Positions 45,203 to 60,941 of a stretch of DNA of 64,000 nt are shown in pieces. The translations under genes were made by a program, and so were the position numbers. The stretch is from Microvirga puerhi (GTDB lineage: Bacteria > Pseudomonadota > Alphaproteobacteria > Rhizobiales > Beijerinckiaceae). A model generated the notes under the pieces. It had not been told where the DNA came from. It saw only the letters and a list, made by a program, of their open reading frames with translations, and searched no databases. The stretch's first letter is position 1. The number at the start of each line of letters is the position of its first letter. Where the stretch lies: contig NZ_JAIRBM010000014.1 of the NCBI RefSeq assembly GCF_020089865.1, forward strand, positions 1 through 64,000, in the 5' to 3' direction.

Positions 45203-48200
45203 TGCGGTTCAACCTCTCCTATTGGGCGCTGAGGCAGCGTTCGGTGGTGGTCTACCTGATGATCGTCGCGGTGGTCGCCGGCGTGCTCTCCTATCAGCGG
45301 CTTGGGCGTGCGGAGGATCCTGCCTTCGTGATCAAGACGATGGTGGTTTCCGCCGCTTGGCCGGGCGCGACCCTGGACGACACCGTCAAGCAGGTCACCG
45401 AGCGGCTGGAGCGGCAGCTCGAGGAGGTGCCGGATCTCGATTTCGTGCGCAGCTACACCGTGCCCGACCAGACCACGATTTTCGTGAACCTGAAGGATGC
45501 GACGCCGGCCCGCAACGTCCAGGAGCGCTGGTTCCAGGTCCGCAACCTGGTGTCCGACATGGTCCGGACCCTGCCGACCGGCGTGGTCGGGCCCTTCTTC
45601 AACGACCGCTTCGGCGATACCTTCGGCATCATTTACGGCTTCACCGCGGACGGTTTCACGCACCGCGAACTGCGCGACCGCGTCGAGGCCATCCGGTCCC
45701 GCCTGCTCCTCGTTCCCGACGTGTCGAAGATCGAGATCATCGGCGCGCAGGACGAGCGGATCTTCGTCGAGTTCTCGGTCAAGGAGCTGGCCAACCTCGG
45801 GATCGACCGCTCCGCCCTCATCGAGGCCATCCGGGCGCAGAACGCCATTCGCCCGGCCGGAACGATCCGGACCGACGAGGAGAACGTGTCGCTGCGGGTC
45901 TCGGGCGCGTTCGGCTCGGAGGCGGATCTGGCGCGGATCAACTTCCCGGTCGGCGACCGCATGCTGCGGCTCGCCGACATCGCCACCATCCGCCGCGGCT
46001 ACGCGGATCCCCCGCAACCCATGTTCCGGGTGAACGGCCAGGAGGCGATCGGCCTCGGCATTGCCATGCGGGATGGCGGCGACATTCTCGCGCTCGGCCG
46101 GAATCTCAAGGCCACCATGGCGGCGATCACGGCCGACCTGCCGGTGGGCATCGAGCCGTGGCTCGTGGCCGACCAGGCAGTCACGGTCGATCTTGCCATC
46201 GCGGACTTCATGTCCTCGCTCTGGCAGTCGGTGGCGATCATCCTGGCCGTGAGCTTCATCAGCCTCGGCGTCCGCGCAGGTCTGGTCGTCGCGCTGTCGA
46301 TCCCGCTCACGCTCGCGGTCGTCTTCGCCCTCATGATGGTGGCCCATATCGACATGCAGCGCGTGTCCCTGGGGGCGCTGATCATCGCGCTCGCCCTGCT
46401 GGTCGACGATGCCATGACCACCACGGACGCGATGGTCACGCGGCTGGCGGCCGGCGACGACAAGCGGAGCGCGGCCACCTATGCCTTTCGGCATTATTCC
46501 ATGGCGATGCTGGCCGGCACGTTCGTGACGATCGCCGGATTCGTCCCCATCGGCTTTGCGGCGAGTTCCGCCGGAGAATACACGTTCTCGCTCTTTGCCG
46601 TCGTGAGCATCGCGCTCGTCGTGTCCTGGTTCGTCGCGGTCGTGTTCTCGCCGGTCCTCGGCGTCGCGATCCTGAAGTCGCCGGCCGGGCACGCGGATGC
46701 CGCCCCGCCCGGCAGGATGGCCAGGACCTTCCGGTGGATGCTGTCGAAGGGCATCGCGGCACGCTGGATCACCATCGCGGCGACCCTGGGCCTGTTCGTG
46801 CTGTCCCTGCTGGCACTTCCCTTGGTGCCGCGCCAGTTCTTTCCCGCGTCCGACCGGCCGGAACTACTTGTCGACCTGAAGCTGCCGCAGAACGCCTCGA
46901 TCCATGCCAGCGAGGCCGTCGTCAGCCAACTCGACGCCGTCCTCGCCAAGGATCCCGACGTGGCGCGCTGGAGCATCTATGTCGGGCGCGGTGCAATCCG
47001 CTTCTATCTCCCGCTCAACGCCCAACTGCCGAACGACTTCTTCAGCCAGGGCGTGATCGTCGCGAAGGACCTGACCGCCCGCGAGCGCCTCCAGGCGAGA
47101 CTCGAGACCCTGCTGGCGCGCGACTTTCCGGGCGTCGTCTCGCGCGTTTCCCCGCTCGAACTGGGGCCACCAGTCGGTTGGCCGATCCAGTACCGCGTGA
47201 GCGGGCCGGATCTCGTGCCGCTGCGCACCATCGCCCTCCAGGTAGCCCGCGCCGTCTCGGCGAGCCCGAAAACCGGACAGGTCGGCTTCGACTGGATCGA
47301 GCCATCGCGTCAGGTTCATCTGCAAGTGGATCAGGACGAGGCCCGGAGGCTCGGGCTCAGTTCGCAGCAGATCGCGGCCGTGCTCGGCACCGTGGTGTCC
47401 GGCGCGAGGGTCACCCAGGTCCGCGACGACATCTACCTGATCGACGTCGTGCTCCGCGCCCGCGACGAGGAGCGTCTTTCTCTCGACGCCTTGCGCAGCA
47501 TGCAGGTCGCGCTCCCCAGCGGCCGCTCCGTTCCGCTCTCGCAGTTCGTCACCTTCGCGTATGAGCAATCGGCTCCGCTGGTCTGGCGGCGCGACCGCGT
47601 GCCGACCCTGACCGTGGAGGCCGACGTTGCGCCCGGGGTTCTCGCCGAATCGGCGGTCTCGGACCTCGCCGCCTCGATCGAGGGGATCCGCAAGACGCTA
47701 CCGCCCGGATACACCATCGACGTCGGCGGCACCGTGGAGGAAAGCGCCAAGTCGCAGGGCTCGGTCCTGGCCGTCGTCCCGGTGATGATCCTCATCATGC
47801 TCACCGTCCTGATGGCGCAGCTAAGGAGTTTCGGGCGATTGGCCATCGTGCTCAGCGTCGCGCCGCTCGGCCTCATCGGGGTGGTCGGCGCATTGCTCCT
47901 CAGCGCCAAGCCCCTGGGCTTCGTGGCCCTGTTAGGCATCCTCGCCCTGATTGGCATTATCACGAAGAACGCCCTGATCCTCGTGGGGCAAATCGAATAC
48001 GAGCGCGCCAGCGGCAAGTCCGTGCGGAATGCGGCCATCGATGCCAGCACGGTCCGCTTCCGCCCCATCATGCTGACGGCCATGTCGACCGTACTCGGCA
48101 TGATCCCGATTGCCTGGACGGTGTTCTGGGGTCCCATGGCCTTTGCCATCATGGGCGGATTGCTCGTCGGCACGGTTCTCACCCTGGTCTTCCTGCCGGC

Positions 48201-48291
48201 CCTCTACGTGGCGGCGTACGACCGCGGCCCGCAGGAAACGCCCACGGCGACGCCACCGGTCCTGGCAGCAGTGGAGGGACGTCAGCCATGA
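45202..48291 (+). CDS. RND multidrug-type efflux pump
   Basis: A 1029-residue inner-membrane RND pump with 12 helices. It shows the N-terminal RAEDPAFVIKTMVVSAAWPG porter start, the helix 4 proton-relay region ALIIALALLVDDAMTTTDAM with paired aspartates, and the helix 10-12 signature LGILALIGIITKNALILVGQ. The sequence style is close to the TriC-like group that exports hydrophobic compounds; substrate is not known. ATG at 45202 shares one base with the preceding stop. It is followed by a second adaptor gene, overlapping by four bases. Confidence 0.92.
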   Translation: MRFNLSYWALRQRSVVVYLMIVAVVAGVLSYQRLGRAEDPAFVIKTMVVSAAWPGATLDDTVKQVTERLERQLEEVPDLDFVRSYTVPDQTTIFVNLKDATPARNVQERWFQVRNLVSDMVRTLPTGVVGPFFNDRFGDTFGIIYGFTADGFTHRELRDRVEAIRSRLLLVPDVSKIEIIGAQDERIFVEFSVKELANLGIDRSALIEAIRAQNAIRPAGTIRTDEENVSLRVSGAFGSEADLARINFPVGDRMLRLADIATIRRGYADPPQPMFRVNGQEAIGLGIAMRDGGDILALGRNLKATMAAITADLPVGIEPWLVADQAVTVDLAIADFMSSLWQSVAIILAVSFISLGVRAGLVVALSIPLTLAVVFALMMVAHIDMQRVSLGALIIALALLVDDAMTTTDAMVTRLAAGDDKRSAATYAFRHYSMAMLAGTFVTIAGFVPIGFAASSAGEYTFSLFAVVSIALVVSWFVAVVFSPVLGVAILKSPAGHADAAPPGRMARTFRWMLSKGIAARWITIAATLGLFVLSLLALPLVPRQFFPASDRPELLVDLKLPQNASIHASEAVVSQLDAVLAKDPDVARWSIYVGRGAIRFYLPLNAQLPNDFFSQGVIVAKDLTARERLQARLETLLARDFPGVVSRVSPLELGPPVGWPIQYRVSGPDLVPLRTIALQVARAVSASPKTGQVGFDWIEPSRQVHLQVDQDEARRLGLSSQQIAAVLGTVVSGARVTQVRDDIYLIDVVLRARDEERLSLDALRSMQVALPSGRSVPLSQFVTFAYEQSAPLVWRRDRVPTLTVEADVAPGVLAESAVSDLAASIEGIRKTLPPGYTIDVGGTVEESAKSQGSVLAVVPVMILIMLTVLMAQLRSFGRLAIVLSVAPLGLIGVVGALLLSAKPLGFVALLGILALIGIITKNALILVGQIEYERASGKSVRNAAIDASTVRFRPIMLTAMSTVLGMIPIAWTVFWGPMAFAIMGGLLVGTVLTLVFLPALYVAAYDRGPQETPTATPPVLAAVEGRQP

Positions 48292-49475
48292 CGTTTCTGC
48301 ACCCTACCCTGCTCGCCCTCCTGATCCTCACGCTCGGCGCCTGCGGCAGCGAGAAGCCGCCCGCCGTGGCACGGCCCGTGAGGGTCACGACGGTCGAGCC
48401 TGGGCTCCGCAGCGAGACGGTGCGGCTCACCGGAGACATCCAGGCCGAGAAGGACATCGATCTCGCGTTCCGGATCGGCGGCCGGGTCGTCGAGCGGAGC
48501 GTCAATGTGGGCGATCGGGTCGAACCGGGCCAAGTGCTTGCACGGCTCGATCCGGCCGCCGAGGAGAGTGCCCTCACGGCGGCCAAGGCCGCGCTCGATG
48601 CCGCCCGAGGGGAACTGGCGCGGGCCGCCAACGCCTTCGAGCGGCAGGAAAGCCTTCTCGCTCAAGGGTTCACGACGCGGCCCCTGTTCGATAAGGCCAA
48701 GGCGTCCTACGAAACCGCCCAGGCCGGTGTCGAGGACGCGGAGGCGCGACTGGAGATCGCTCGCGACCGGATGGGCTTCACCGAGCTGCGTGCACGGACC
48801 TCGGGCGTCGTTACGTCGCGCGCGGTTGAGCCGGGAGAGGTCGTGCAGGCCGGCCAGTCCGTGCTTCGGCTGGCCGGAGGCGAAGGGCGCGACGCGGTGT
48901 TCGATGTCCCCGCGCGCCTGCTCGAGCGCGGCCGCTCCGACCTGCCGGTCCGGATCGCTCTCGCGGACGATCCCGCCGTCACGGCGCAAGGCCGGATTCG
49001 CGAGGTCGCCTCGCAGGCGGACGCCGTGACCCGCACGTTTCGCGTCCGCGTCGGGCTCGAAGCGCCGCCCGAGGCGCTCCGCCTCGGCTCGACCGTGAAT
49101 GGGCTGGTCGAGTTGGCGCAGAAATCGGTCATGTCGATTCCGGCCAGCGCCCTCACCATGGATGGAGACCTGCCGGCGGTTTGGATCGTCGATTTGACCG
49201 GGAAGACGGTCTCCCAGCGGCCCGTGGAGATTCTCCGCTACGACCCGCACCGGGTCGTTCTCGCCGGCGGTCTCGATCCGGGCGACACGATCGTTGCGGC
49301 CGGCATCCAGGCCCTTTATCCCGGCCAGAGAGTGGACCCACTCGCGTTCGATCCGGCGCTGCCCGGAGGGCCATCATCGGCGGAGCGCCCGTTGCCGCGG
49401 CACCGCGGCCGGACGAGGTCGTGGAGTTCGCTCGGAAAGCGGCCCTATCAATCCCGAGAGAAACACCATGCCTAA
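48288..49475 (+). CDS. RND efflux periplasmic adaptor (membrane-fusion lipoprotein) 2
   Basis: A 395-residue paralogue of the first adaptor. Its lipobox is in LLALLILTLGACGS, followed by FRIGGRVVERSVNVGDRVEP, an alpha-hairpin (about residues 95-150) and SRAVEPGEVVQAGQSVLRLA. The last 40 residues (after DPALPGG) are arginine- and proline-rich and unlike the family, and the frame ends at the edge of the transposon-like element at 49476, so the native end may have been disturbed. Two adaptors for one pump recalls TriABC-type systems. Confidence 0.85.
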   Translation: MTFLHPTLLALLILTLGACGSEKPPAVARPVRVTTVEPGLRSETVRLTGDIQAEKDIDLAFRIGGRVVERSVNVGDRVEPGQVLARLDPAAEESALTAAKAALDAARGELARAANAFERQESLLAQGFTTRPLFDKAKASYETAQAGVEDAEARLEIARDRMGFTELRARTSGVVTSRAVEPGEVVQAGQSVLRLAGGEGRDAVFDVPARLLERGRSDLPVRIALADDPAVTAQGRIREVASQADAVTRTFRVRVGLEAPPEALRLGSTVNGLVELAQKSVMSIPASALTMDGDLPAVWIVDLTGKTVSQRPVEILRYDPHRVVLAGGLDPGDTIVAAGIQALYPGQRVDPLAFDPALPGGPSSAERPLPRHRGRTRSWSSLGKRPYQSREKHHA

Positions 49476-49860
49476 TGTCACATTGCCTTTAATTTTGAGA
49501 TTCGTCGCGTTGGGTGTCGAAAAGCGACAGTCTTTGCCCTTAAAGGCGAGATGCCGATCAAGTTTGTTCGCTGCTCTTTGATCCCTGCCCGGGACCGCGG
49601 TGCTGGATCCGGCACGCGATCCAATCGACGGTGGCGCGCAACCGGGCTTGCTTGTGACAGCTCCGGAGCAAGGCGGCCTTGGCGAATTCTGTCAGGTCCC
49701 GTTCCATCGCCATCGCAGCCAGCCGCACGCCCCTGTCAACGCTGTCTCAACATTAAGGGGAAAGAGCCTCGAGTTTAGAGGCACAATCTCACATCGAGCG
49801 GCAAAGGATTGCCATTGATGGTGTTGAGTTCCTGATCTCGCCTTGAGGGGCAAAGCGACA
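49476..49860. mobile_element. Non-autonomous transposon-like element, copy 2
   Basis: A 385-bp direct repeat of 42636-43017, clearly similar throughout. Ends are TGTCACATTGCCTTTAA and, inverted, TGTCGCTTTGCCCCTCAA, with the same internal motif copies. The two copies flank the DUF308-efflux operon in the same orientation. No matching target duplication is seen. Confidence 0.6.
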
Positions 49861-49942
49861 CCGTTGCTGTCGAAGCACGAAGTCGCCGAAGAAACTCCGG
49901 CGGCTCGTGGGCCTGTCTTTGATGCTTCACTTTCGATACGGC

Positions 49943-50728
49943 TTAGGAAGCACCTGGTGACGTTGACGGCTTGAAACGCACGACGAACCGATGGCGGTCG
50001 CCCGGATAAATGAGCCGAACAAACGTAATGAGTTCCCCGTCCAACCATGTCCTTCGCGCGATGGAGATACATGCAGTGCGCTCGACCACTTGTAGCCTCC
50101 TGGCAAGGATCGCGTCCGCGGACACTGCTCGTATCGAATGTTCTCCCTCTGTGAATGGAATATTGTGGAGCAGCCAACTGCCCGGAGGCTCGTCCTTGAA
50201 CTGAAGCCTCTCCACTTGCGGGACTGCGTCAAGGTTGATCTGGCGGGACTCGATCGTGAACGGGAGATTGTCGGCGTAATGCATGACCTCAAGAGTCAAG
50301 AGACGGGTTCCCACAGGAACGCCGACATGACGTGCATCGAGAGCGTCAGTCGCTTTCCGAATGCTGCGGTCAGTGATCTCGAACGAATACGTCCGATCGA
50401 TCGCCAATACCTCTGCGCGAATGTCCTGAATGTGCATCAACGGTTCTTCGATCCGCGGCGGTGCCACAAAGGAGCCAGATCGGCGCTTTCGAGAAATCAT
50501 TCCCGAGGCGGCTAAGCTCGACAAAGCCTTATTTACCGTCATCCGCGAACAGTTATAGATATCGACCAATTCGCGTTCCGGAGGAATGCGAGTGCCTGGC
50601 CCCCATTCGCCGGTCGTTATCTTGCTCTCGATGTCGCGCTGGATCTCCGCGTAACGAGACGAAGGATGCTTTTCCGTCGCAATATCATCCATGAGCTGAC
50701 GACGCTGCCTCTGAAATATGGGAACCAC
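49943..50728 (-). CDS. hutC: HutC-type GntR-family transcriptional repressor
   Basis: A 261-residue GntR/UTRA regulator. The winged-helix (about residues 25-90) has YAEIQRDIESKITTGEWGPG, PPERELVDIYNCSRMTVNKA and LAASGMISRKRRSGSFV. The UTRA ligand domain (about 105-250) has MHYADNLPFTIESRQINLDA and the closing WLDGELITFVRLIYPGDRHR, characteristic of HutC, which binds urocanate to relieve repression. It probably controls hutH, the two cucumopine-synthase-like genes and the transporter through TGTATATACA-like sites, including one in its own promoter. ATG at 50692 (MDDIATEK) is an alternative start. Confidence 0.88.
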   Translation of the reverse strand: MVPIFQRQRRQLMDDIATEKHPSSRYAEIQRDIESKITTGEWGPGTRIPPERELVDIYNCSRMTVNKALSSLAASGMISRKRRSGSFVAPPRIEEPLMHIQDIRAEVLAIDRTYSFEITDRSIRKATDALDARHVGVPVGTRLLTLEVMHYADNLPFTIESRQINLDAVPQVERLQFKDEPPGSWLLHNIPFTEGEHSIRAVSADAILARRLQVVERTACISIARRTWLDGELITFVRLIYPGDRHRFVVRFKPSTSPGAS

Positions 50729-50767
50729 TCATAATCGCACCTCTCATCATATGAAAAACTTCTGATT

Positions 50768-50777
50768 GGTATATATC
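50768..50777. promoter_or_regulatory. HutC-like operator upstream of hutC
   Basis: GGTATATATC, an imperfect match to the TGTATATACA palindrome, 40 bases upstream of the hutC start. It suggests autoregulation. Confidence 0.5.
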
Positions 50778-50901
50778 ATATCGCGAATTGCCCGTACATC
50801 AAAGGGGCGCCTGGTTATCACCAAGGGTATGTGGATGCATCGTCTGATAAGATCTCGGAAGTGGGCGGCGGCAATGAATGTCGTTACCGCCGCCGAACCG
50901 A

Positions 50902-52431
50902 TCAGAGCGCCGGGAGGGTACCCTCGGTCAACGGGGCGATCAAACGACCGCTGGCAACAAGCCCGGTCGCGCGCTTGAGGTCGCCAGCCATATAACGGTC
51001 GTCGTCGAGCTTCGGTATTTCGTTGCGCACAGCCTTGCGAACGGCATCAAGCGCCGGACTGGAGGTAAGCGGAGCGCGCAAATCGATGCCCTGGGCTGCA
51101 CTGATGGCTTCGATACCGACGATGGAGAACAGGTTCTCTGTCATCTGAAGGAGACGACGGGCACCATGGCACGCCATGGAGACGTGGTCCTCCTGGTTTG
51201 CCGAAGTCGGCGTGGAGTCGACCGAGGCAGGGTGGGACATCTGCTTGTTTTCCGACATTAGCGCAGCCGATGTGACCTCAGCAATCATGAAACCGGAATT
51301 CAGGCCAGGCTTGGGGGTCAGAAACGCGGGTAGGCCGTAGCTCAGAACCGGATCGACCAAGAGGGCGATGCGCCGTTGGGCGATCGCACCGATCTCGCAG
51401 ATGGCGATAGCGATCTGGTCTGCCGCGAACGCGACAGGCTCCGCATGGAAGTTGCCGCCAGAGACGATCGTGCCATCGGAGAGCACGAGCGGATTGTCCG
51501 TGGCCGCATTTGCTTCGACGATCAACGTATGGGCGGCCTGGCGCAAGAGATCGAGGCACGCGCCGACGACCTGAGGCTGGCAGCGAAGGCAGTAGGGGTC
51601 CTGGACACGCTCATCAGCTTCTTCGTGGCTCGCCCGAATCTGGGAGCCGTCCATCAGTGCGCGCAACGCATGCGCGGCATCGATCTGGCCCTGATGACCA
51701 CGAAGGGAATGAACCTCTGGGTGGAAGGGCGAAGTTGACCCCATCGCGGCGTCGGTCGAGAGCGCACCGGAGACCAGTGACGAAACCAGTGCGCGGTGGG
51801 CGCGGAAGAGTCCGGCTAATGCAAGCGCTGTTGACGCCTGCGTACCGTTAATCATTGCCAGGCCTTCCTTGGCCTTCAGGGTAATCGGAGTGATTCCAGC
51901 CTTCGCCAACGCATCTTTGGCCGGCAAGACCTTGTCGTCGAATTTCGCCTCGCCCTCGCCGATCAAGGCCGCGGTCATATGGGCAAGCGGAGCAAGGTCG
52001 CCCGACGCCCCAACGGATCCCTTTTCGGGAATAATTGGGAGCACGTTCTTCTCCAGCATGGCAGCAAGAACATCGATGACCTGCGGCCTGACGCCCGAAG
52101 CACCCCGTCCAAGTGAGATCAGCTTAAGCGTCATGATGAGCCGAACGATACCATCGGCAAGGGGAGCACCAACACCGCAGCAGTGGGAAAGGATCAGATT
52201 CCGCTGCAAGGTCTCGACGTCGGCAGCCGGGATGCGCACGCTCGCGAGCTTCCCGAAACCGGTGTTGATCCCATAGTGCGCCTTCTCGCCGCCTGCGATC
52301 GCAGCGACCTTGTCGGCCGAAGCTTGCACCCTCTTCAACGCCTTCTCGTCCAACTTCGGGATCAACGAACCTTCGTAGACGGCTGCCAATGTTTCGAGCG
52401 AGACTTTTCCGGGAACAAGCATGTTGGACAT
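50902..52431 (-). CDS. hutH: Histidine ammonia-lyase
   Basis: A 509-residue enzyme that removes ammonia from L-histidine to give urocanate, the inducer of HutC. The self-made MIO cofactor arises from Ala142-Ser143-Gly144 in [15 protein letters not shown]. The catalytic tyrosine is in HYGINTGFG (residue 53). [20 protein letters not shown] and SRKEQ-equivalent [20 protein letters not shown] segments are also family features. Full length. hutU, hutI and hutG are not present, so only the first step of the Hut pathway is encoded here. Confidence 0.95.
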
Positions 52432-52488
52432 ATCGATACCTTAGAAGCGTGAGAGTTTGGCAGACATATTCGCGATATGTCCTATATT

Positions 52489-52498
52489 TGTATATACC
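52489..52498. promoter_or_regulatory. HutC-like operator upstream of hutH
   Basis: TGTATATACC, nine of ten positions of the palindrome, 58 bases before the hutH start codon and overlapping a plausible promoter position. Confidence 0.65.
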
Positions 52499-52540
52499 AT
52501 ATGAAATCCAGCAGATGTAAAGTGCTCTCTGTGCAAACAT

Positions 52541-52573
52541 CATGGGCGGCCCTCACGAGGAAGGCCGCCCATG
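52541..52573 (-). terminator. Strong hairpin between the minus-strand synthase-like gene and hutH
   Basis: CATGGGCGGCC pairs perfectly with GGCCGCCCATG (11 bp, 11-base loop), 27 bases past the stop of the gene at 52601-53563. No T-run follows on the minus strand, so it may be an intrinsic terminator of the weak type or an mRNA-end structure. It separates that transcript from hutH. Confidence 0.55.
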
Positions 52574-52600
52574 ACACGAGGCCACACGTTATAGGATTGA

Positions 52601-53563
52601 TTATGCGGGCTTAACCGGATTGAAGCGGCCGGGAAATTCCTGACCGTTCACCGCCCGGCCGTAGAACATTCCCAGATACCAGGGGAAGTAGTGGTATGAC
52701 CAGGCGCACAGGCGGTTGCCATACATAATGAAGGTTCGCAGAATCGTGCGGAGCTCTTCCTTGTCATCCGTCTCGCGGATGGCGGACCGCAGCTTGTTCG
52801 AAAAATCGAGAAGCGTGTTCAGGCCGGAATAGCCAAGATACTCGGAATAGGCGGGATCGAACGCCTCGACCGACGCCACGAAATCGTCGTGGGAGAGCGT
52901 ATCGATCAGTTTCAGGAGGGGATAGGCTGTGTACATGATGTAGTCGCGAAGCATGCCGTTGGCGAAGTCCCAGGCCGTAAAATACTGCCCATAGGTACCC
53001 GTGTCGCCGATCGCGCCGGTCCGTATACGGCGCAAATCCTCGGGCTCGACCGTCTGAATTCTTTTCGCTTCGGCGTAGAACTCCGCGGCGACGCCCGTGA
53101 GATTTGAAAAACGGCCCTCGCCTTTGAAGGCTTGCGTCGGATCGTGCGGCTTCACCTCAACGAAAATCTGCTCCTTCGCGAAGAACAGATTTGTCCAGAT
53201 CGCCTTCCCGACACCCTGCAGCAAATGGTGGTATTCCGGAAGGACTTTTCCCAGGACCGGCTGGGCGAGCGGCTCGAGTCCCGGGCCATATTGGATCGAG
53301 AACTTGTTGCCGGTAGCCTGGGAATATCGAAGGTCGCCGACCGCGCAATCGACGATGCGGCGGCGCAAGCGAACCGGCGCCGTGCTAATCGTTGGCGTCC
53401 ACGCGTAAAGCGACTCTCCTGACACCACCGGATGCGCCTGCATCACCTTGAAGGGAAGATCCCGCCAGAACTCCTCGCAAAGTTCCGGATTCTCCTCGTC
53501 CGCGAGTTCGGCCACGACGACGACGTCGAGTTCTGGCCATGTGATATCAACCAACCTGCCCAT
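52601..53563 (-). CDS. Cucumopine-synthase-like protein A (cyclophilin-like domain then helical bundle)
   Basis: A 320-residue soluble protein. Residues about 10-140 form a DUF3830/cyclophilin-like domain (NPELCEEFWRDLPFKVMQAH; VSGESLYAWTPTISTAP; GDLRYSQATGNKFSIQYG). Residues about 165-300 form an all-helical bundle (YFTAWDFANGMLRDYIMYTA; NRLCAWSYHYFPWYLGMFYG). This order matches cucumopine/mikimopine synthases, which condense histidine with 2-oxoglutarate; the family call is from memory of its motifs. With HutH and HutC next door, it may make or cleave a histidine-derived opine. GGGGACAT precedes the ATG, and a perfect GGTATATACC lies upstream. Confidence 0.65.
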   Translation of the reverse strand: MGRLVDITWPELDVVVVAELADEENPELCEEFWRDLPFKVMQAHPVVSGESLYAWTPTISTAPVRLRRRIVDCAVGDLRYSQATGNKFSIQYGPGLEPLAQPVLGKVLPEYHHLLQGVGKAIWTNLFFAKEQIFVEVKPHDPTQAFKGEGRFSNLTGVAAEFYAEAKRIQTVEPEDLRRIRTGAIGDTGTYGQYFTAWDFANGMLRDYIMYTAYPLLKLIDTLSHDDFVASVEAFDPAYSEYLGYSGLNTLLDFSNKLRSAIRETDDKEELRTILRTFIMYGNRLCAWSYHYFPWYLGMFYGRAVNGQEFPGRFNPVKPA

Positions 53564-53618
53564 TTATGTCCCCATACTTGGCAATTGTTCAGGCCAAACA
53601 AGACCATTAGCCCGAATA

Positions 53619-53628
53619 GGTATATACC
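53619..53628. promoter_or_regulatory. HutC-like operator upstream of synthase-like gene A
   Basis: GGTATATACC is a perfect 10-bp palindrome, 56 bases before the minus-strand start at 53563, with the same core as the other three sites. Confidence 0.65.
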
Positions 53629-53696
53629 ATCCGGGAACATATTGCTCTCCGCAAGCTGGAATCTCCAAGAAAATACATCAAACCTCAGGTTTTTTA

Positions 53697-53722
53697 CCAG
53701 ACAAAATGGTCATTTTGTCTGG
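53697..53722. promoter_or_regulatory. Perfect 12-bp dyad in the divergent promoter region
   Basis: CCAGACAAAATG and its exact inverse CATTTTGTCTGG are separated by two bases, with short T-runs on both sides. A two-base centre suits a protein-binding operator better than an RNA hairpin, although a bidirectional terminator cannot be excluded. It lies between the two divergent synthase-like genes. Confidence 0.55.
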
Positions 53723-53977
53723 TTTTTCACTCAATCTCAGCTTTTCCCGCAAACCGATTCTTTGAGCGCCCCAGAGGATCCGACCCTGTTCGGCCCAATT
53801 TCAGTCGGCCAATGTGCCACTTTAACGGGAACAGTTCGCGCTATGCTCTCGCGATGGCGCGAGCCGAGGGCAATTTCTCAAACAAAAGCCAGCTATGGTC
53901 TATACAAATTACTCTTGTTGAATATGCTGTTCCTCGCGCGGCCCATCGCCGCACGGTCAAAGATTGGAATCTGTCAA

Positions 53978-54925
53978 ATGTCGTATGAGAGCTTGAGTGA
54001 CGTCGTTAAGGCGGTGAAGGAGAAAACGGCTGCTTATGAAAGCACGGAGCCGAAGGAACTTTACGATATCCGCACCGGGACCTTTGCGGTCGGCACGAAC
54101 AACCAGTATTTCACTAACCTGGATTTCGTGAACGGCATGCTTCGCGACCAATCTATGTATACGTGGTATCCGCTTCTGCTGACGTTCCAGGACATGCGGT
54201 TCACCCTTGAGCAGGCCTGCGCACTCGTACATCGCTTCGACTACGCCTACAGCAACTACCTGCGTTACAGCGGTCTGCAGGAGATGGGCGCCTTTGCGGA
54301 AGCTATCACCAAGTTTCTTCCGACGGCCTCCAGCCGCGAAGAGGCGGTCGAAGCCGTGAAGGCGTTTCTCGGTTATCTCAACCGGCTTGCCGCATGGTCC
54401 TTCCACTACTTCCCCTGGAGCATCGGCAAGCATCTCACCTATGAGACACCCGAGGGCTCCATCGCGGCTCTCGCAGACCCGTCGCGCCGCGTGAAAATCG
54501 CGGACGGCCAGAAGGTTCGCCTTACGTGGGAGCCGCTGGATATCAGCGTCATCGCCTATCTCGCAAGTAAGGAAAACCCGGAGCTCTGCGATGACGTCAT
54601 CGCGGCACTGCCATTTACCGTCGTTCAGGACCATGCGGTCGTCAGCGGTGAATCCATGTACGCCTGGGCGCCTGTCGTCAGCACCGCGAAGGTAAACGTC
54701 AAGGAACGCCAGTGCGATGCGCCGGTCGGCCGCATTCGCTATTCGCAGGGCACAGGCAACAAGATCATCGTCCAGTATGGCGAGGTCACCGAAGACATCG
54801 CGACGCCAGTTCTCGGTGAAATCCTGCCTGAATATGCCGACGACATCTACAAGGTCGGCCGCGCAGTCCTCGAAAGCAACTTCGGCGACAAAACGCCCAT
54901 CATGCTGAAAGTCGAGCTCGCGTAA
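53978..54925 (+). CDS. Cucumopine-synthase-like protein B with reversed domain order
   Basis: A 315-residue protein homologous to protein A over both domains but with the order exchanged. The helical bundle comes first (residues about 30-150: QYFTNLDFVNGMLRDQSMYT; NRLAAWSFHYFPWSIGKHL). The cyclophilin-like domain comes second (about 180-312: NPELCDDVIAALPFTVVQDH; VSGESMYAWAPVVSTAK; RIRYSQGTGNKIIVQYG). Conserved blocks VSGES(L/M)YAW, RYSQ.TGNK and PVLG..LPEY are shared with A. ATG at 53978 is chosen because the preceding in-frame sequence is not protein-like. A and B may form a hetero-oligomer or catalyse successive steps. Confidence 0.65.
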   Translation: MSYESLSDVVKAVKEKTAAYESTEPKELYDIRTGTFAVGTNNQYFTNLDFVNGMLRDQSMYTWYPLLLTFQDMRFTLEQACALVHRFDYAYSNYLRYSGLQEMGAFAEAITKFLPTASSREEAVEAVKAFLGYLNRLAAWSFHYFPWSIGKHLTYETPEGSIAALADPSRRVKIADGQKVRLTWEPLDISVIAYLASKENPELCDDVIAALPFTVVQDHAVVSGESMYAWAPVVSTAKVNVKERQCDAPVGRIRYSQGTGNKIIVQYGEVTEDIATPVLGEILPEYADDIYKVGRAVLESNFGDKTPIMLKVELA

Positions 54926-54938
54926 GCTGGACGAAATC

Positions 54939-54963
54939 AGGCGGCCCGCGAGTCGGGTCGCCT
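54939..54963 (+). terminator. Hairpin after synthase-like gene B
   Basis: AGGCGGCCCG pairs with CGGGTCGCCT (one G-T pair, five-base loop), 14 bases after the stop codon. A T-rich stretch appears only about 40 bases later, so termination is likely but not certain. Confidence 0.5.
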
Positions 54964-55015
54964 CATGCAAAGTAGCGAAAAATGTGACTTGATTGATTAT
55001 GCCTTTTTAATAATA

Positions 55016-55025
55016 TGTATATACA
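55016..55025. promoter_or_regulatory. HutC-like operator upstream of the ABC transporter operon
   Basis: TGTATATACA is a perfect palindrome and the best match of the four sites. It lies 372 bases before the binding-protein gene but only 37 bases before the small frame at 55062, suggesting a long leader transcript. Confidence 0.7.
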
Positions 55026-55061
55026 AACCGCAGCAAAATGCGGGTAGAGGAGAACGGCGCA

Positions 55062-55241
55062 ATGGCTTTCTGGTTTGAATTCAGATCTATCAGTGACGCT
55101 CCGGACAGTGCGAAGCGTGATGGGAAAGTGCCTGCCAATTCGCCAGCCTTCGGGCTGTGTCCCCGGTTGACTGTCCGCTGGGTTAGCGATGCCGCTGGAA
55201 GGTTTTGGGGCCGGGGCCTCAAGGGGCTTTGGCGCGGGTAA
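55062..55241 (+). CDS. Possible small leader protein upstream of the transporter
   Basis: A 59-residue frame beginning MAFWFEFRSISDAPDSAKRD, with GAGGAG nine bases before the ATG. The arginine/glycine-rich C-terminus is not clearly protein-like and no family is recognised. Its place between the operator and the transporter suggests either a small gene or a regulatory leader. Confidence 0.3.
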   Translation: MAFWFEFRSISDAPDSAKRDGKVPANSPAFGLCPRLTVRWVSDAAGRFWGRGLKGLWRG

Positions 55242-55264
55242 CTAGGCCCACGGCCGCGGACGAT

Positions 55265-55286
55265 GGCCCCCGAAAACAAGGGGGCC
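55265..55286 (+). promoter_or_regulatory. GC hairpin in the transporter leader
   Basis: GGCCCCC and GGGGGCC form a 7-bp stem with an eight-base loop, followed by GTTCCTG with no T-run. It may protect or attenuate the leader mRNA ahead of the binding-protein gene. Confidence 0.4.
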
Positions 55287-55396
55287 GTTCCTGAAGTTGG
55301 AAATCAATTGTGTGCCCGCGTTCTGGCGTAGTGCCGGACGCGAAACGGTTAGTTTCGTCCTGACAGAACAAACTCGAACCAGAGGGAAGCATATCC

Positions 55397-56419
55397 ATGA
55401 AACGGCAATTTCGGAAAGCCATCACCGGTAGCGTGATAATGATAGCAGCCTGCGCGCTTAGCTCAGTCGCCCTGGCCCAACAAAAGGAGCTTATCCTCAG
55501 CGGCTTTGGTGGCGCCTATGACGAGGCGATGGCTGCAAGCGTCAAATCATTCGAGCGCGAAAACGGCGTCAAGGTCACGATCGTTGCCGGATCGGGTGCG
55601 AACAACATCGCCCGTGTTCGCAACAAGGAAATTGACGTGATCGTGTCCGATCCGGTCTTCGCCCTGCGGATGGAAGCGGAGAAGGCATTCGCCCCGCTGG
55701 ATCCTAATCTGGCCTCCAACCTGAAGAACCTCTATCCAAAGGCGATCTACTCTGACGCGGTTGTCGCGGCAAACTTTGGGGCATATGTGATCGCCTACAA
55801 TCCTGCCGAGGTGAAGGCACCGCAATCCTGGCACGATCTCGCAAAACCGGAGTATAGGGGACGCATTGCCCTGCGCGGGTTCCGGCCGGAAAATATCGAT
55901 CTTATCACCCTCTTTGCGAAAGAGGCGGGCGGGGATGAACGTCATCCTGATGCCGGCTTTGCCGAGATGGCGAAGATCGCTCGGAACGTCGACGTCTGGG
56001 TCGAGTCCCACGCCAACCATCTCGAACTCTATCGAAACGGCCAGATCTCCATGAGCATGTGGACCGATGGTCGAATTGCCTGGGCGCGAGACGCGGAAGG
56101 CACCAAAATACAGGGCGCCATTCCCAAGGAGGGCTTCTTCGCGCTGTCATCGACGCTCAGCGTCGTTGCAGGTCGCCCGAACGCAGATCTCGCGCAGAAG
56201 CTGGTGAACACACTGCTGAGCCCGGAAGCCGGCCTCATCATGGCGCAGAAGCTAGGCTATTTTCCAACCAACAAGGAAACCAAACTGCCACCGGAAGTGC
56301 AGGCGAAAATGATGATCACACCTGAGAATGTGAACAATCTTCAAAGCGCCGATTGGAAGTACATCGTTTCCGTCTACGATAAGTGGCAGCAGCGCTGGGA
56401 ACGGGAAATTCAACGATAA
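55397..56419 (+). CDS. ABC transporter periplasmic binding protein (polyamine/opine type)
   Basis: A 340-residue exported protein with signal peptide ending SSVALAQQ. It resembles the extracellular solute-binding family of spermidine/putrescine and iron(III) importers: ELILSGFGGAYDEAMAAS at the start, VTIVAGSGANNIARVRNKEI, and a hinge region around WHDLAKPEYRGRIALRGF. AGAGGGAAG precedes the ATG. The ligand cannot be read from sequence; the neighbouring genes suggest a histidine-derived compound. First gene of a four-gene overlapping operon. Confidence 0.85.
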   Translation: MKRQFRKAITGSVIMIAACALSSVALAQQKELILSGFGGAYDEAMAASVKSFERENGVKVTIVAGSGANNIARVRNKEIDVIVSDPVFALRMEAEKAFAPLDPNLASNLKNLYPKAIYSDAVVAANFGAYVIAYNPAEVKAPQSWHDLAKPEYRGRIALRGFRPENIDLITLFAKEAGGDERHPDAGFAEMAKIARNVDVWVESHANHLELYRNGQISMSMWTDGRIAWARDAEGTKIQGAIPKEGFFALSSTLSVVAGRPNADLAQKLVNTLLSPEAGLIMAQKLGYFPTNKETKLPPEVQAKMMITPENVNNLQSADWKYIVSVYDKWQQRWEREIQR

Positions 56420-57501
56420 TGGCTGAGCAATTTGATATTGAGCTGTCGCATTGCCGCAAGCGGTATGGCGCGATCAACGTCCTCGATGACGTCTCGCTTC
56501 GTGTGAAGAGCGGTGAGTTCATCACCGTTCTTGGCCCGAGCGGCTGTGGCAAGACAACGACGCTGCGCGCTATCGGGGGGTTTATTACCCCCGATAGCGG
56601 TCACATATCGATCCGGGGGAGGGACGTGACCCACCTCCCTCCCTACAAGCGCAACATCGGCGTTGTTTTCCAGAACTATGCTCTCTGGCCTCATATGACC
56701 GTGGCCGAGATCCTCGGCTTCGGTCTGCGTATTCGCAAGCTACCCCGTGAAGAGATCGCCCGCCGTGTGGACCGGGCGCTTGGCATGGTGCAACTGACGG
56801 GCTTGAAGGATCGCTATCCCCGGGAACTGAGTGGCGGGCAACAGCAACGAGTCGCCATGGCGCGCGCGCTGGCGATCGATCCCGAGGTGATCATTCTCGA
56901 CGAGCCTCTATCCAATCTCGATCGCCGATTGCGCGAAGAACTTCGTATCGAGTTGAAGCGGCTCCAGCGGTCTCTCGGTGTGACGATGCTGTTCGTTACC
57001 CACGATCAGGAAGAGGCGCTGTCCATGTCGGACCAGGTTGTCGTCATGCAATCGGGACGGATACAGCAGATCGCCGATCCGCGGACGGTCTACGAGCGTC
57101 CCGCGAACCGCTTTGTCGCCGGCTTCCTCGGAAGCGCCAATTTCATGGCAGGTGAGCTCGTGCAGAACGCTCAGGACGGCAAGGCCCAGGTGAAGCTCGG
57201 CAATGGCGCCGTCGTCGGCGCATATGCCCCATCGGCGAAAACTGCCGGCGAGAAGGTCACCGTCATCGTTCGACCCGAATGGCTCGTGCTTGAGCGGCCG
57301 GGCAATCAACTGGCTGCAAACCAGCTCGAAGGCACGGTTGGAGACGTAATCTATGAGGGATCCGCGATCCGGTACGGGATTACGCTCGATCATGATCCAG
57401 AAGCGCCGATCTTTCTGCAGGAACGATCGAACGCCGATGTTTTGAATCCGGGGGACAAGGTGAGGATCAATGTCATCAACGCCATCATTGCCACAGACTG
57501 A
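56419..57501 (+). CDS. ABC transporter ATPase, PotA type
   Basis: A 360-residue ATPase. It has Walker A GPSGCGKTT near residue 40, Q-loop VFQNYALWPHMT, signature ELSGGQQQRVAMARAL, Walker B VIILDEPLSNLD and the H-loop VTHDQEEAL. A C-terminal TOBE-like regulatory domain follows from about residue 270. The start codon shares one base with the upstream stop (TAATG). Energises import together with the two permeases. Confidence 0.92.
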   Translation: MAEQFDIELSHCRKRYGAINVLDDVSLRVKSGEFITVLGPSGCGKTTTLRAIGGFITPDSGHISIRGRDVTHLPPYKRNIGVVFQNYALWPHMTVAEILGFGLRIRKLPREEIARRVDRALGMVQLTGLKDRYPRELSGGQQQRVAMARALAIDPEVIILDEPLSNLDRRLREELRIELKRLQRSLGVTMLFVTHDQEEALSMSDQVVVMQSGRIQQIADPRTVYERPANRFVAGFLGSANFMAGELVQNAQDGKAQVKLGNGAVVGAYAPSAKTAGEKVTVIVRPEWLVLERPGNQLAANQLEGTVGDVIYEGSAIRYGITLDHDPEAPIFLQERSNADVLNPGDKVRINVINAIIATD

Positions 57502-58381
57502 CGATTCTGGCGGGCTCCGGAAGCGGTTTGTGACCTGGGCTACCCAGGCACCGATGTTCGTGCCGTTCGTCTTCGTCATCCTTTTCTTCTTCGTGCCCAT
57601 GGCTTGGCTCGTTGCGACGAGCATGTCTACACACGAGGTCGGCAGCCCTCCCGTGTTTACCGGCACGCTCGAGCACTATGCTCGCTTCTGGACGGATCCT
57701 TTCTACCTGGAGACGGCGCTTTGGACGACTGTCAAGCTCTCGGTTGTCTCCACAGTGCTCGCTTTGATTATTGGCTACGTACTCGCCTATTATATTGCTG
57801 AACTTCCTGCGCATCGCAGAGGCTTGCTCACCAGCATGGTGGTGGTCTCCCTTTCTGTGAATATTGTCATCCGGATTTTCGGCTTGAATGTCCTTCTTAT
57901 GAGTGGAGGGGCTGTCGACAGTGCGCTGACCTTTCTTGGAATGCCCAAGGTTCGGATCATGTATACCGAACTTGGCGTCCTGATCGGACTGGTCCAGATT
58001 GCCATACCCTACGTCGTTTTGCCCCTCATCGGCGTGCTTGCTGCCGTCGATCCGGCTCTGAAAGAGGCGGCCGAAAGCGTCGGCGCGAACAAGTATAAAA
58101 CGTTCTGGGCCGTGACTTTTCCGCTGTCCTTGCCGGGAGTGGTCGCCGGCACGCTGATTGCCTTTACGCTAAACGCTGCAGCGTTTGCAATTCCGTCCCT
58201 TATGGGCGGCGGCCGGGTCAAGATGATGGGCATGATGGCCTATGTGCAGGCAACGGTACAAGGCAACTTTCCGTTTGCCGCGGCGGTCGGGATCAGCCTG
58301 ACGCTCCTAAGCATCGTGATTACGGCTATTTACCTGTTTGTGATCAATCGAACATTCCGAACAGCGAGGAAAGCAGCATGA
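57470..58381 (+). CDS. ABC transporter permease 1, PotB type
   Basis: A 303-residue permease with six helices: PMFVPFVFVILFFFVPMAWL first, then AVESVGA-type EAA loop read as ALKEAAESVGANKYKTFWAV, which docks on the ATPase. It overlaps the ATPase gene by 32 bases. Typical of the binding-protein-dependent importers for polyamines and opines. Confidence 0.88.
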   Translation: MSSTPSLPQTDDSGGLRKRFVTWATQAPMFVPFVFVILFFFVPMAWLVATSMSTHEVGSPPVFTGTLEHYARFWTDPFYLETALWTTVKLSVVSTVLALIIGYVLAYYIAELPAHRRGLLTSMVVVSLSVNIVIRIFGLNVLLMSGGAVDSALTFLGMPKVRIMYTELGVLIGLVQIAIPYVVLPLIGVLAAVDPALKEAAESVGANKYKTFWAVTFPLSLPGVVAGTLIAFTLNAAAFAIPSLMGGGRVKMMGMMAYVQATVQGNFPFAAAVGISLTLLSIVITAIYLFVINRTFRTARKAA

Positions 58382-59205
58382 CCGCCACCACAGCAGTATC
58401 GAGTGGGAAAGCGCGCTGGCCAGTCCCCACAGGATTGGGAATCGCGGCGTCTTGCGCATTTGCCTTCGTCGTCGCTCCACTTATCGTGGTCGCCGGCGCT
58501 GCATTGAATGCGGAAGCAATGTTCTTCCCGCCTCGGCAATTGACCTTGCGCTGGATGATGGCGGCTTTGACAGAGGGCAGCTTCGTCAACGGCGCCCTGA
58601 TCAGCTTCGTCGTCGCAGTAGTGGCGGCCGCTTTCTCGACGCTTTTCGCGCTACCAGTCGCACTCCAATTGAGGAAAGCGCCACCCGCAGTAGCGAGGAT
58701 ACTGACCCTGTCATTCATGGGGCCGCTGCTCGTGCCATCGATAATCTTCGCCTTGGCCCTTTATTCAGTGATGATCTATGCGTTCGGTGTAACCAATCTG
58801 TCCATCCTAATGATTGGCCACGTAATAATCACGATGCCGTATCCGGTGCGAACCATCACGGCCGTTACCGAGCATCTCGATCCCGCTCTGGAGGATGCTG
58901 CCGGCAGCGTCGGCGCATCTCCCTGGCGAACGTTCGTGTCGGTCACATTGCCGCTGATCAAACCCGGTGTTATCGCCGGCTTCCTGTTCGCCTTCATAAC
59001 GTCGTGGAACGACTTTTCCATCTCGGTCTTTCTCACGCCGCGCGAGTTGCAACCCCTTCCGATCAAAATCTACGAATACCTTCTGTACCAATACAGACCG
59101 ATCATTGCGGCGGTCTCAACCTGGTCGGTCATCGGCTCGGCAATCATCGTTCTTATTATCGATCGTCTTGTTGGTCTGAACGTGTTTACCGGCCGTCGTA
59201 GCTAA
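58378..59205 (+). CDS. ABC transporter permease 2, PotC type
   Basis: A 275-residue permease with six helices and the EAA loop ALEDAAGSVGASPWRTFVSV. Its ATG overlaps the previous stop by four bases. It completes the importer. The operon ends 24 bases before an IS6 element, so any further downstream genes may have been lost. Confidence 0.88.
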   Translation: MTATTAVSSGKARWPVPTGLGIAASCAFAFVVAPLIVVAGAALNAEAMFFPPRQLTLRWMMAALTEGSFVNGALISFVVAVVAAAFSTLFALPVALQLRKAPPAVARILTLSFMGPLLVPSIIFALALYSVMIYAFGVTNLSILMIGHVIITMPYPVRTITAVTEHLDPALEDAAGSVGASPWRTFVSVTLPLIKPGVIAGFLFAFITSWNDFSISVFLTPRELQPLPIKIYEYLLYQYRPIIAAVSTWSVIGSAIIVLIIDRLVGLNVFTGRRS

Positions 59206-59229: not shown

Positions 59230-60054
59230 GGTATTGTCAATTTGGCGCCGAAGAGGCAAAGCTGCGATGGGCGCAGCCCTCGGGTCAGTCCACATCAGCC
59301 TAGTAGGGCCGCACCGGTGGCGTCGCGCCACGTAGCAAAGGCGCGATCCCGCGCAGCCCGGTACTCACTGGCGGACAGACGATGACGGCGGCGTTGGAAG
59401 TGGTTGAGGATCTGGGCGTGGGTGGCAAGAAATTGCTGGGCATGCCGGACTGACTTGAACCGCCGCATGCGACGCTTACGCCTTCGGGTGGGTTGGTGCG
59501 ACATCTCACAGCGATTATCGAGATACCGGCTCTGCCGATGCTATACGCTCCGCAGAATCTCGCGTTCAGCGGCGCCGTAGGATCCGAGTTTGTCCGTCAC
59601 GGTAACCCTCGGCGTGTAGCACAAACCTTTCCGCAGCTTGCGAAAGAAAAGCTTTGCTGCCTTTTTGTTGCTGCGGCTCTGCACCAGAACATCGAGTACG
59701 TTTCCCTGCTGATCAACCGCTCGCCAGAGATCGTGCAGTTTGCCTCGGATACGGATAAACACCTCACCTAAAACCCACTTATCACCCAGCTGCGGCCGAC
59801 GCCGTTTGAGACGATTGGCGAAGTTCCGACCGAAGCGCCGGCTCCATTCTCGGATGGTCTCGTAGCTGACCACGACGCCGCGAGCCGCCAAGATCAGCTC
59901 GACTTCGCGTATGCTCAGGCTGAAGCAGTGATACAACCAGACCGCCTGGTTGATGATCTCGGCTTGAAAGCGGAATCCGCGATAGAGGTTGGACGTCGTG
60001 CTCATGCGCGGGGGCCCGCCATAGACCCTGGACTCTTGCCAACTTGACAGTACC
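59230..60054 (-). mobile_element. IS6-family element with a defective transposase
   Basis: An 825-bp element with ends GGTATTGTCAATTTGGC and, inverted, GGTACTGTCAAGTTGGC (two mismatches in 17). Same type and length as 36392-37216 but inverted. Confidence 0.8.
59295..60005 (-). pseudogene. IS6-family transposase interrupted by a stop codon
   Basis: Starts MSTTSNLYRGFRFQAEIINQ and is collinear with the intact transposase at 36439. At 59541-59543 the codon for the glutamate in the SVEHRQSRYL block is TAG, and the frame then continues with HRQSRYLDNRCEMSHQPTRR to the normal end. A single nonsense codon therefore splits it. In addition, LGEVF replaces the usual LDEVF, so a catalytic aspartate is lost. 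Confidence 0.85.
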
Positions 60055-60102
60055 ACTGGGAGGTCTCCCGCACCGTAATTCGTTCCGCCACCAAATCCTT
60101 GA

Positions 60103-60941
60103 GGGTTCCGTTGCAACTCCTGACATAGGTCGCGCGAAGGTCCGCCTAGGACCCCCGTCAGGCGGCTGCGCCGAACAGGCTGGCAATAAAGGCGCGCTGA
60201 GCGACCATGTCATTCCCTGGAGCATCGATAACCTGTCCCTTGCGGATCATCGCCATGGCCTCGTAGCCGGCAATCGTCTGCGTGGCCGTCGCGAAGCTCT
60301 TGAAGCCCAATCCTGGGAGAACCAGCCGTTTGATACGCCGGTGATCCTGCTCGACGATGTTATTCAAAATCTTCACTTGCCGGAGTTTGGCAAACCGCCA
60401 GACCTCGCCGGCACGTTTCATAGCCTTCGTCGCGACGGGATAGGCCGCATTCTTGTCGACCGTGATGGTTCACGGATTGACCGTATTCGGCTGCCCTAAG
60501 GCCTTGCGGAAGAAGCGCCGGGCGGCAGACGTATCCCGCTTGGGGATAGCAGAAAGTCGATGGTCTGCCCCGTCGCATCAACGGCGCGGTAGAGATAAAC
60601 CCATTCACCCTTCACTCGAATGTAGATCTCGTCCACCCGTCAGGAACCGTTCGTCATGCGCAGATGCAGACGCACGCGCTTATCCAACTCCGGAGCGTAA
60701 GCCTGGATCCATCGAAACAGGGTCGTGTGGTCGACCTGAATGCCTCGATCAGCCAGCATGCGTTCCAGGTCACGATAGCTGATTGGAAATTGCAGGTACC
60801 AGCGGACCGCCCACAGGATGATCTCCGCCGTGAACTGCCAACCCTTGAATGGGTTCTTGTTCTTCTGCTTCACCGTCAGCCCCTCTCACCCCCTCGGGTC
60901 GTAGCTCAGGCGGCGCAAGCTTCAAAGCTACGACAGAACCC
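60103..60941 (-). mobile_element. Degenerate IS6-family element
   Basis: About 839 bp between GGTTCCGTTGCAACTC at the left and the complement of GGTTCTGTCGTAGCTT at the right. These ends belong to a third IS6 subtype. The transposase inside is broken. Confidence 0.65.
60158..60873 (-). pseudogene. IS6-family transposase, multiply disrupted
   Basis: The N-terminus is intact (FTAEIILWAVRWYLQFPISY; RDLERMLADRGIQVDHTTLF). Then an in-frame stop follows LHLRMTNGS, and a frameshift near 60550 follows GQTIDFLLS. The C-terminal block resumes in another frame as NNIVEQDHRRIKRLVLPGLG and ends AMAMIRKGQVI. It cannot be functional. Confidence 0.8.

Follow-up and report, generated by a model that had tools for sequence, protein, structure and literature searches.

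A mobile cassette in Microvirga puerhi that probably serves the use of cucumopine or a close relative through a cucumopine-synthase-like enzyme

Cucumopine is an opine of L-histidine and 2-oxoglutarate, the histidine counterpart of the product of the bacterial Pictet-Spenglerase KslB, and the cucumopine-catabolic region of plasmid pAtAg67 is reportedly described by Hooykaas et al. (2022). Cucumopine-catabolic regions are known from Agrobacterium plasmids, one non-virulent isolate included, according to PMC10745273. Here we describe a related locus in a 64-kb stretch of DNA from Microvirga puerhi (the window, to which all position numbers refer), which carries a HutC-type repressor, a histidine ammonia-lyase (HutH), two Cucumopine_C (PF18631) proteins called P1 and P2, and an ATP-binding cassette (ABC) importer. 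An earlier interpretation of the sequence (the original prediction) had proposed uptake and turnover of a histidine opine here and had assumed that no such bacterial system was described outside transferred DNA (T-DNA). The assumption was wrong, since the plasmid regions above had been reported, while the proposal gained support from the presence of the same cluster on cucumopine-type plasmids and from the 86-88% identity of P2 to T-DNA copies. Our best explanation is that the locus is a mobile eight-gene cassette which probably serves the use of cucumopine or a very close relative, by import, cleavage by P2 and removal of the released histidine by HutH.

As identified via profile searches, eight genes fill positions 49,943-59,205, three on the minus strand (hutC, hutH and P1) and five on the plus strand (P2, binding protein, ATPase and two permeases):

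49,943-50,728, minus strand: HutC-type GntR/UTRA repressor (TIGR02018 at 267.1 bits, cut-off 220; 89-92% identity to HutC of pRi2659 and pAtAG67)
50,902-52,431, minus strand: HutH, histidine ammonia-lyase (TIGR01225 at 695.8 bits, cut-off 539.15)
52,601-53,563, minus strand: P1, Pictet-Spenglerase-family protein with a cyclophilin-like domain followed by a helical bundle, the order of McbB (PF18631 at 55.9 bits, residues 159-291)
53,978-54,925, plus strand: P2, cucumopine-synthase-like protein with a helical bundle followed by a cyclophilin-like domain, the order of KslB (PF18631 at 60.4 bits, scored on a longer open frame)
55,397-56,419, plus strand: periplasmic binding protein of the ABC importer (PF13416 SBP_bac_8 at 96.6 bits; 85-87% identity to plasmid copies)
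56,383-57,501, plus strand: ATPase of the ABC importer (PF00005 and TOBE_2; TIGR01187 at 359.3 bits, cut-off 355.6)
57,470-58,381, plus strand: permease 1 of the ABC importer (PF00528 at 46.3 bits; 89-90% identity to plasmid copies)
58,378-59,205, plus strand: permease 2 of the ABC importer (PF00528 at 50.8 bits; 88-89% identity to plasmid copies)

The gene content is thus as the original prediction had it: repressor, HutH, two cucumopine-synthase-like proteins and a complete importer stand together at the positions it gave, and the HutC, HutH and PF18631 cut-offs are passed. HutH matches its best PDB hit, the Pseudomonas histidine ammonia-lyase 1gkm, over its full length, and its Ala-Ser-Gly and active-site motifs, which we take to be catalytic, are intact. 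P2 most likely starts at the ATG at 53,978, giving 315 residues; a 497-residue protein from 53,432 was rejected, the upstream part of that open frame being without a match to P2 relatives. Identification of the importer as the PotABCD spermidine/putrescine system was also rejected, with PotD (63 of 582 bits), PotB (171 of 348) and PotC (96 of 326) all under their equivalog cut-offs; among the PotABCD-related profiles tested, only that of the broader ATPase subfamily TIGR01187 was passed. All eight proteins are under constraint: the ratio of nonsynonymous to synonymous substitution rates was 0.03-0.08 in 15 of 16 comparisons with pRi2659 and pAtAG67 (synonymous sites are near saturation, and one of the 16 values is undefined).

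The nearest described systems are the cucumopine-catabolic regions of Agrobacterium and Rhizobium rhizogenes (pAtAg67, pRi2659 and Agrobacterium vitis tumour-inducing (Ti) plasmids), which resemble the window copy in the eight genes, their order and orientation, and the operator sites. When 72,556 plasmid records were searched with the proteins, P2 was found at 90-95% identity in 13 of the 21 matching records, all from Agrobacterium or Rhizobium rhizogenes, and P1 at 80-95% identity in 13 of 16. On pRi2659 and pAtAG67 the gene order is hyuB-hyuA-hutC-hutH-P1-P2-importer-hutF-hutI-hutG-hutU, and the counterparts of the eight cassette proteins are 84.7-94.0% identical to them; we infer that Hooykaas et al. 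described this same cluster as the pAtAg67 region. The complete eight-gene order also occurs in two further genomes (G062 and G204, the latter at 60-82% identity). Since the same order is thus found on pRi2659 and pAtAG67 and in G062 and G204, the eight-gene set was not assembled by chance; this also bears out the linkage of P1- and P2-type genes to hutH and hutC elsewhere, on which the original prediction depended. Unlike those plasmid regions, the window copy is without adjacent hyuA/hyuB and hutF/I/G/U, is bounded by a repeat and insertion-sequence remnants, and lies in a host in which RolB and RolC were not detected. For oxoprolinase pairs encoded beside opine genes, a role in the opening of lactam opines has been suggested (PMC6733357). 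As hyuA and hyuB are absent beside the window copy, lactam opine forms may be beyond its reach.

On A. vitis pAvCG412, a second P2-type gene adjoins a RolB-family gene, with an octopine-synthase-type dehydrogenase gene and ipt further along, and on pRi2659 a P2-type gene comes after four RolB-family genes; window P2 is 86.5% and 88.0% identical to these T-DNA-located genes, respectively. From their position, the P2-type genes beside rol genes are evidently the T-DNA cucumopine synthase (cus), a naming that goes by gene position, as the records label both genes 'hypothetical protein'. The T-DNA cucumopine synthase (pRi2659, pAvCG412 and pTiAg57) has the domain order of P2 at 86-88% identity; window P2 differs from it in sitting within a catabolic operon with bacterial operators rather than beside RolB-family genes. 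In the T-DNA stretches viewed (pAvCG412 and pRi2659), the P2-type gene was present with no P1, so P2-type catalysis should not need P1.

Comparison of the T-DNA-located gene with the catabolic P2 of the same plasmid revealed cores that are 99.2-100% identical in all six plasmids compared: 100.0% in pRi2659, pRiO132 and pTiAg57, 99.9% in CG957, and 99.2% in pAvCG412 and NCPPB3554. Exact runs extend over 834 bases in pRi2659, 834 in pRiO132, 839 in pTiAg57, 651 in CG957, 284 in pAvCG412 and 284 in NCPPB3554. At the gene ends, the two copies are only 52-57% (first 60 bases) and 74-81% (last 70 bases) identical. Between the root-inducing (Ri) and Ti lineages, the cores are ~85% identical (~15% different), for the T-DNA gene and the catabolic P2 alike. 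The ends of catabolic P2 genes vary no more than the P2 cores (85%, 84%), which assigns the sharp ends to the T-DNA genes. The simplest reading of these patterns would be gene conversion between the T-DNA copy and the catabolic P2 in at least two lineages; misassembly of near-identical copies is a possible alternative source of the identical cores. On pTi_CFBP2407, a cucumopine-synthase-like gene is shortened to a small open frame (L082, 3446-3739), and the catabolic P2 of that plasmid is intact.

The family assignment of P1 and P2, a point on which the original prediction hung, was confirmed by hidden Markov model and by PDB sequence search, and for P2 also by predicted structure: both proteins belong to the cucumopine-synthase/Pictet-Spenglerase family. 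Both exceed the PF18631 cut-off of 27 bits (55.9 and 60.4), and in both the cyclophilin-like second domain was matched to KslB and McbB chains in the PDB sequence search. DUF3830 in P1 scored 21.5 bits at residues 9-88, under its cut-off of 26, and was unlisted for P2. The AlphaFold2 model of P2 (predicted local distance difference test (pLDDT) score 87.6) superimposes on KslB chains with template-modelling (TM) scores of 0.78-0.86 at 43-46% identity, and a complex with the product of L-tryptophan and 2-oxoglutarate is among the matches. KslB (9nst, 9ns6, 9k0a), a bacterial Pictet-Spenglerase, thus offers the nearest solved structures, shares the domain order of P2 and uses 2-oxoglutarate; it differs in its amine, L-tryptophan, in its actinobacterial clade and in its biosynthetic role. 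McbB (3x27) has both domains in the order of P1 and was matched over P1 residues 2-301; with the P2 model it aligned in Foldseek over one domain only (TM 0.40, 141-143 columns), and it stands apart from P1 and P2 in the concatenated tree. The glutamate of the YG..E motif is present in all 47 aligned rows, and we take this acidic residue to be the catalytic Glu97 of McbB. PMC7024544 yielded no mention of such a catalytic role.

P1 residues 2-138 align with P2 residues 177-313 at 50% identity, and P1 residues 152-298 with P2 residues 3-150 at 40%; by these alignments, P1 and P2 are circularly permuted versions of one another. In concatenated trees, P1 stands as a clade apart (support 100) whose sister group is the P2/KslB clade (95-96). 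The P2 clade (100) includes the A. vitis T-DNA gene, whereas the mikimopine synthase gene mis groups with split pairs, i.e., neighbouring genes that encode the two domains separately (97-98). Single-domain trees are weaker, and the bundle-domain tree leaves the placement of P1 open (support 21). The trees hold 47 rows (48 with the pRi2659 gene), 12 rows that were duplicates or fragments having been removed ahead of the domain cut and 13 near-duplicate or unpaired rows ahead of tree building; they are unrooted, drawn from an outgroup chosen arbitrarily, and compatible with either direction of the permutation. Split pairs occur in both gene orders (bundle first in L007, cyclophilin-like domain first in L028 and others), and the permuted fusion could therefore have come from the joining of neighbouring split-pair genes in either order. 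In L007 (1483-2496), the bundle-first pair is followed by hyuB- and hyuA-like genes.

The mikimopine plasmid pRi1724 offers a more distant parallel. There Mis, beside rol genes, adjoins a split pair of a DUF3830 protein and a bundle protein (L028, 5081-7965); Mis and the pair have the two domains of P1 and P2 (PF18631 at 32.4 bits in Mis and 89.4 in the split bundle protein), and ABC and hyuB genes lie nearby, as in the plasmid cassettes. Unlike the window, pRi1724 has distant sequences and two separate genes on the bacterial side, and these group with split pairs and not with P1 or P2 (97-98). Given its grouping with such pairs, the mikimopine synthase Mis may derive from the fusion of a bacterial pair, independently of cus.

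Upstream of the cassette genes lie four sites which we predict to be HutC-type operators:

52,489-52,498, no strand assigned: operator-like site upstream of hutH (KGTATAKACM; equivalent in L023, L024, L031 and L061)
53,619-53,628, no strand assigned: operator-like site upstream of P1 (KGTATAKACM; conserved block in five aligned promoters)
53,897-53,906, no strand assigned: operator-like site upstream of P2 (KGTATAKACM; conserved block ATGGTCTATACAAA in five aligned promoters)
55,016-55,025, no strand assigned: operator-like site upstream of the importer operon (KGTATAKACM; conserved block in five aligned spacers)

The pattern KGTATAKACM, picked after the aligned promoters had been viewed, has seven strand-wise matches at these four sites in the 64 kb (0.13 expected), all upstream of cassette genes. 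Equivalent sites are present in L023, L024, L027, L031 and L061, and the host hut operon also holds two such sites; none was found in the Burkholderiales loci L025 and L040-L042. In Pseudomonas putida, urocanate releases HutC, according to PMC12772324.

The original prediction had also reported that hutU, hutI and hutG were absent. This held for the locus but not for the genome: host contig C1 carries hutU-hutG-hutH-hutI plus hutF-hutC, the latter a second hutC, and a lack of these genes in the organism as a whole was thereby ruled out. No match to RolB or RolC was found in the host genome, and the identical search yielded five on pRi1724 and seven on pAvCG412. T-DNA in the host was considered and found unsupported, the positive control having worked, and window P2 is therefore a paralogue rather than a T-DNA gene; nothing in the genome marks the host as a tumour-inducing Agrobacterium. 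The host has a third aromatic amino acid lyase (G000:C4:87802-89280, L060), which is 39% identical to HutH and lies near ABC-type genes.

The pathway would run as follows: i) the ABC importer would bring the opine into the cell; ii) P2 would bind it in the same active site where its T-DNA paralogue carries out synthesis, and would cleave it by a retro-Pictet-Spengler reaction, giving L-histidine and 2-oxoglutarate; iii) HutH would deaminate the freed histidine and pull the cleavage, because this deamination is generally regarded as practically irreversible; and iv) the resulting urocanate would lift HutC off the four operator sites and pass on to HutU, HutI, HutF and HutG from the host hut operon on contig C1. 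The most likely role of P1 is that of a further opine-cleaving enzyme whose preference for stereochemistry or substrate differs, or else that of a partner to P2.

To place the cassette among its relatives, we consider 23 loci from a genome scan, two of which are T-DNA copies; several contigs are short (in L061, L034 and L084 the permease-side flanks are short, and immediate neighbours only were judged). hutH flanks P2 in eight of the 23, hyuA together with hyuB in six, and hutC at at least 63% in four. The cassette is rare among relatives: of 200 relatives, counting the host genome itself, 5 had a PF18631 match, but none of the 20 listed genomes from the same genus did; P1 was matched in 3 of the 397 genomes of the order, again counting the host, and one of these matches was only partial. 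P1 was found only with P2 nearby (window, G062, G101, G204, L023, L024, L027, L031, L035, L038 and L040), which suggests complementary specificity or a partner role. The related genomes G062 and G101 each hold seven PF18631 matches (L007, L008 and L011-L022), some split, some bundle-first and some cyclophilin-first, with several ABC importers alongside; these are possibly collections of opine-type uptake loci. In Neorhizobium (L034), a second, distant P2-type protein (1041-2057, 34% identity) on a long branch lies ~9 kb from the cassette, and short hutC-matching pieces just downstream of permease 2 (15296-15485) are possibly the remains of a rearrangement at the cassette edge.

Several other explanations were weighed. 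The cassette might handle another imidazole Pictet-Spengler adduct rather than cucumopine, such as mikimopine, a compound that is decarboxylated or of the spinacine type, or an unknown product of plants or microbes. In its favour, Paraburkholderia xenovorans, Caballeronia, Acerihabitans and Sodalis have P2-type relatives next to hutH and hyuAB with no Agrobacterium context, and the range of natural substrates may thus extend beyond the crown-gall opine; on the mikimopine plasmid pRi1724, mis adjoins the same enzyme in split form; and the host is without a RolB/RolC match. We nevertheless regard this as unlikely, because the closest relatives of the cassette (85-94% identity) sit on plasmids of the cucumopine type, and P2 shares 86-88% identity with the T-DNA copies but only about 22%, over a partial alignment, with mis-type proteins. 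That the synthase-like proteins run forward, so that the bacterium makes a histidine-2-oxoglutarate compound (a metal chelator, osmolyte or signal) which the importer re-imports, would agree with the biosynthetic relatives KslB and McbB and with the T-DNA copy being a synthase. This is very improbable in a setting made degradative by HutH and HutC, which are joined on the plasmids by hutF-I-G-U and hyuA/B; moreover, HutH would use up the histidine needed, and profile searches found no exporter among the cassette genes. Least credible, with hardly any probability left to it, is an extra histidine/urocanate utilisation locus in which P1 and P2 are unrelated to opines: HutC, HutH and importer alone would fit it, and the host already has a complete hut operon, but P1 and P2 are as constrained as the other cassette genes and have operator sites of their own, and their family membership and relationship to T-DNA are specific.

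Several observations weigh against the use of cucumopine via P2 cleavage, or against parts of it: i) hyuA, hyuB, hutF, hutI, hutG and hutU had no match in the window (tblastn, E 0.01) and so are absent beside this copy; ii) the binding protein reached no substrate-specific NCBIfam cut-off; iii) the characterised relatives KslB and McbB run forward in biosynthesis; iv) the model of P1, from an alignment of five rows, has a pLDDT of only 50.5; v) all eight actinobacterial loci among the 23 have no hut or hyu genes nearby at E 1e-10; vi) the cassette hutH of G101 is cut to residues 1-93 (L062, 10878-11156), with hutC, P1, P2 and importer kept, P1 of the Neorhizobium locus L034 is broken, and Chelatococcus L035 has no hutH within the stretch covered, so neither gene is indispensable everywhere; vii) besides the choice of the operator pattern after viewing, TGTATATACA with one mismatch has further matches at 1989 and 13665; and viii) the T-DNA-located genes of pAvCG412 and NCPPB3554 match pTiAg57 P2 (exact over 839 bp) more closely than the P2 on the plasmid that carries them (99.2%), which also speaks against strict same-plasmid conversion.

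DNA homology to the plasmid cassettes spans ~49,940-59,204, ending there on both sides, and the two edges carry the following features:

49,476-49,860, no strand assigned: repeat at the left cassette edge (385 bases; 89% match to window 42,636-43,017)
59,286-60,054, minus strand: insertion-sequence remnant at the right cassette edge (inverted 79% match to 36,391-37,161; 84% DNA match to a Microvirga IS6 element)

A transposase remnant right of the cassette was also detected by PF13610 DDE_Tnp_IS240 (71 bits within 59,541-60,116). Directly left of the cassette (45,025-49,475) lie genes for a resistance-nodulation-division (RND)-type efflux pump subunit and then a membrane-fusion protein. On the other side, a gene for an ODP-family metallo-beta-lactamase-fold protein (61,042-61,776) lies between insertion-sequence remnants. 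For the DNA beyond the cassette, the best matches among plasmid records came mostly from Microvirga (6 of 14 records).

As far as our literature search reached, new features are the cassette outside its plasmid setting, where hyuAB and hutFIGU are missing and the host supplies the rest of the path; the permuted arrangement of P1 and P2; and the conversion tracts by which P2 is linked to the T-DNA synthase. In the literature searched, which did not include the primary pAtAg67 paper, no enzyme was tied to the breakdown of histidine opines. A wider proposal, to which we give equal chances of holding and of failing, is that an opine may be broken down by its own synthase type: a reversible Pictet-Spenglerase, its core kept base-for-base identical between plant-expressed and bacterial copies by gene conversion, would have its direction set only by its surroundings, with histidase pulling towards cleavage in a catabolic retro-Pictet-Spengler reaction. 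The window would then hold the degradative half, freed from a tumour-inducing plasmid, self-contained and accompanied by a circularly permuted sister.

The cassette names a candidate breakdown enzyme for histidine opines, with a simple thermodynamic logic and from a small, apparently non-tumorigenic source. Furthermore, P1, P2 and the split pairs make up a natural series (split, fused one way and fused the other way) for permutation of a two-domain enzyme. The conversion tracts suggest how an opine synthase gene and the matching catabolic gene may stay compatible, offering a direct handle on the opine concept.

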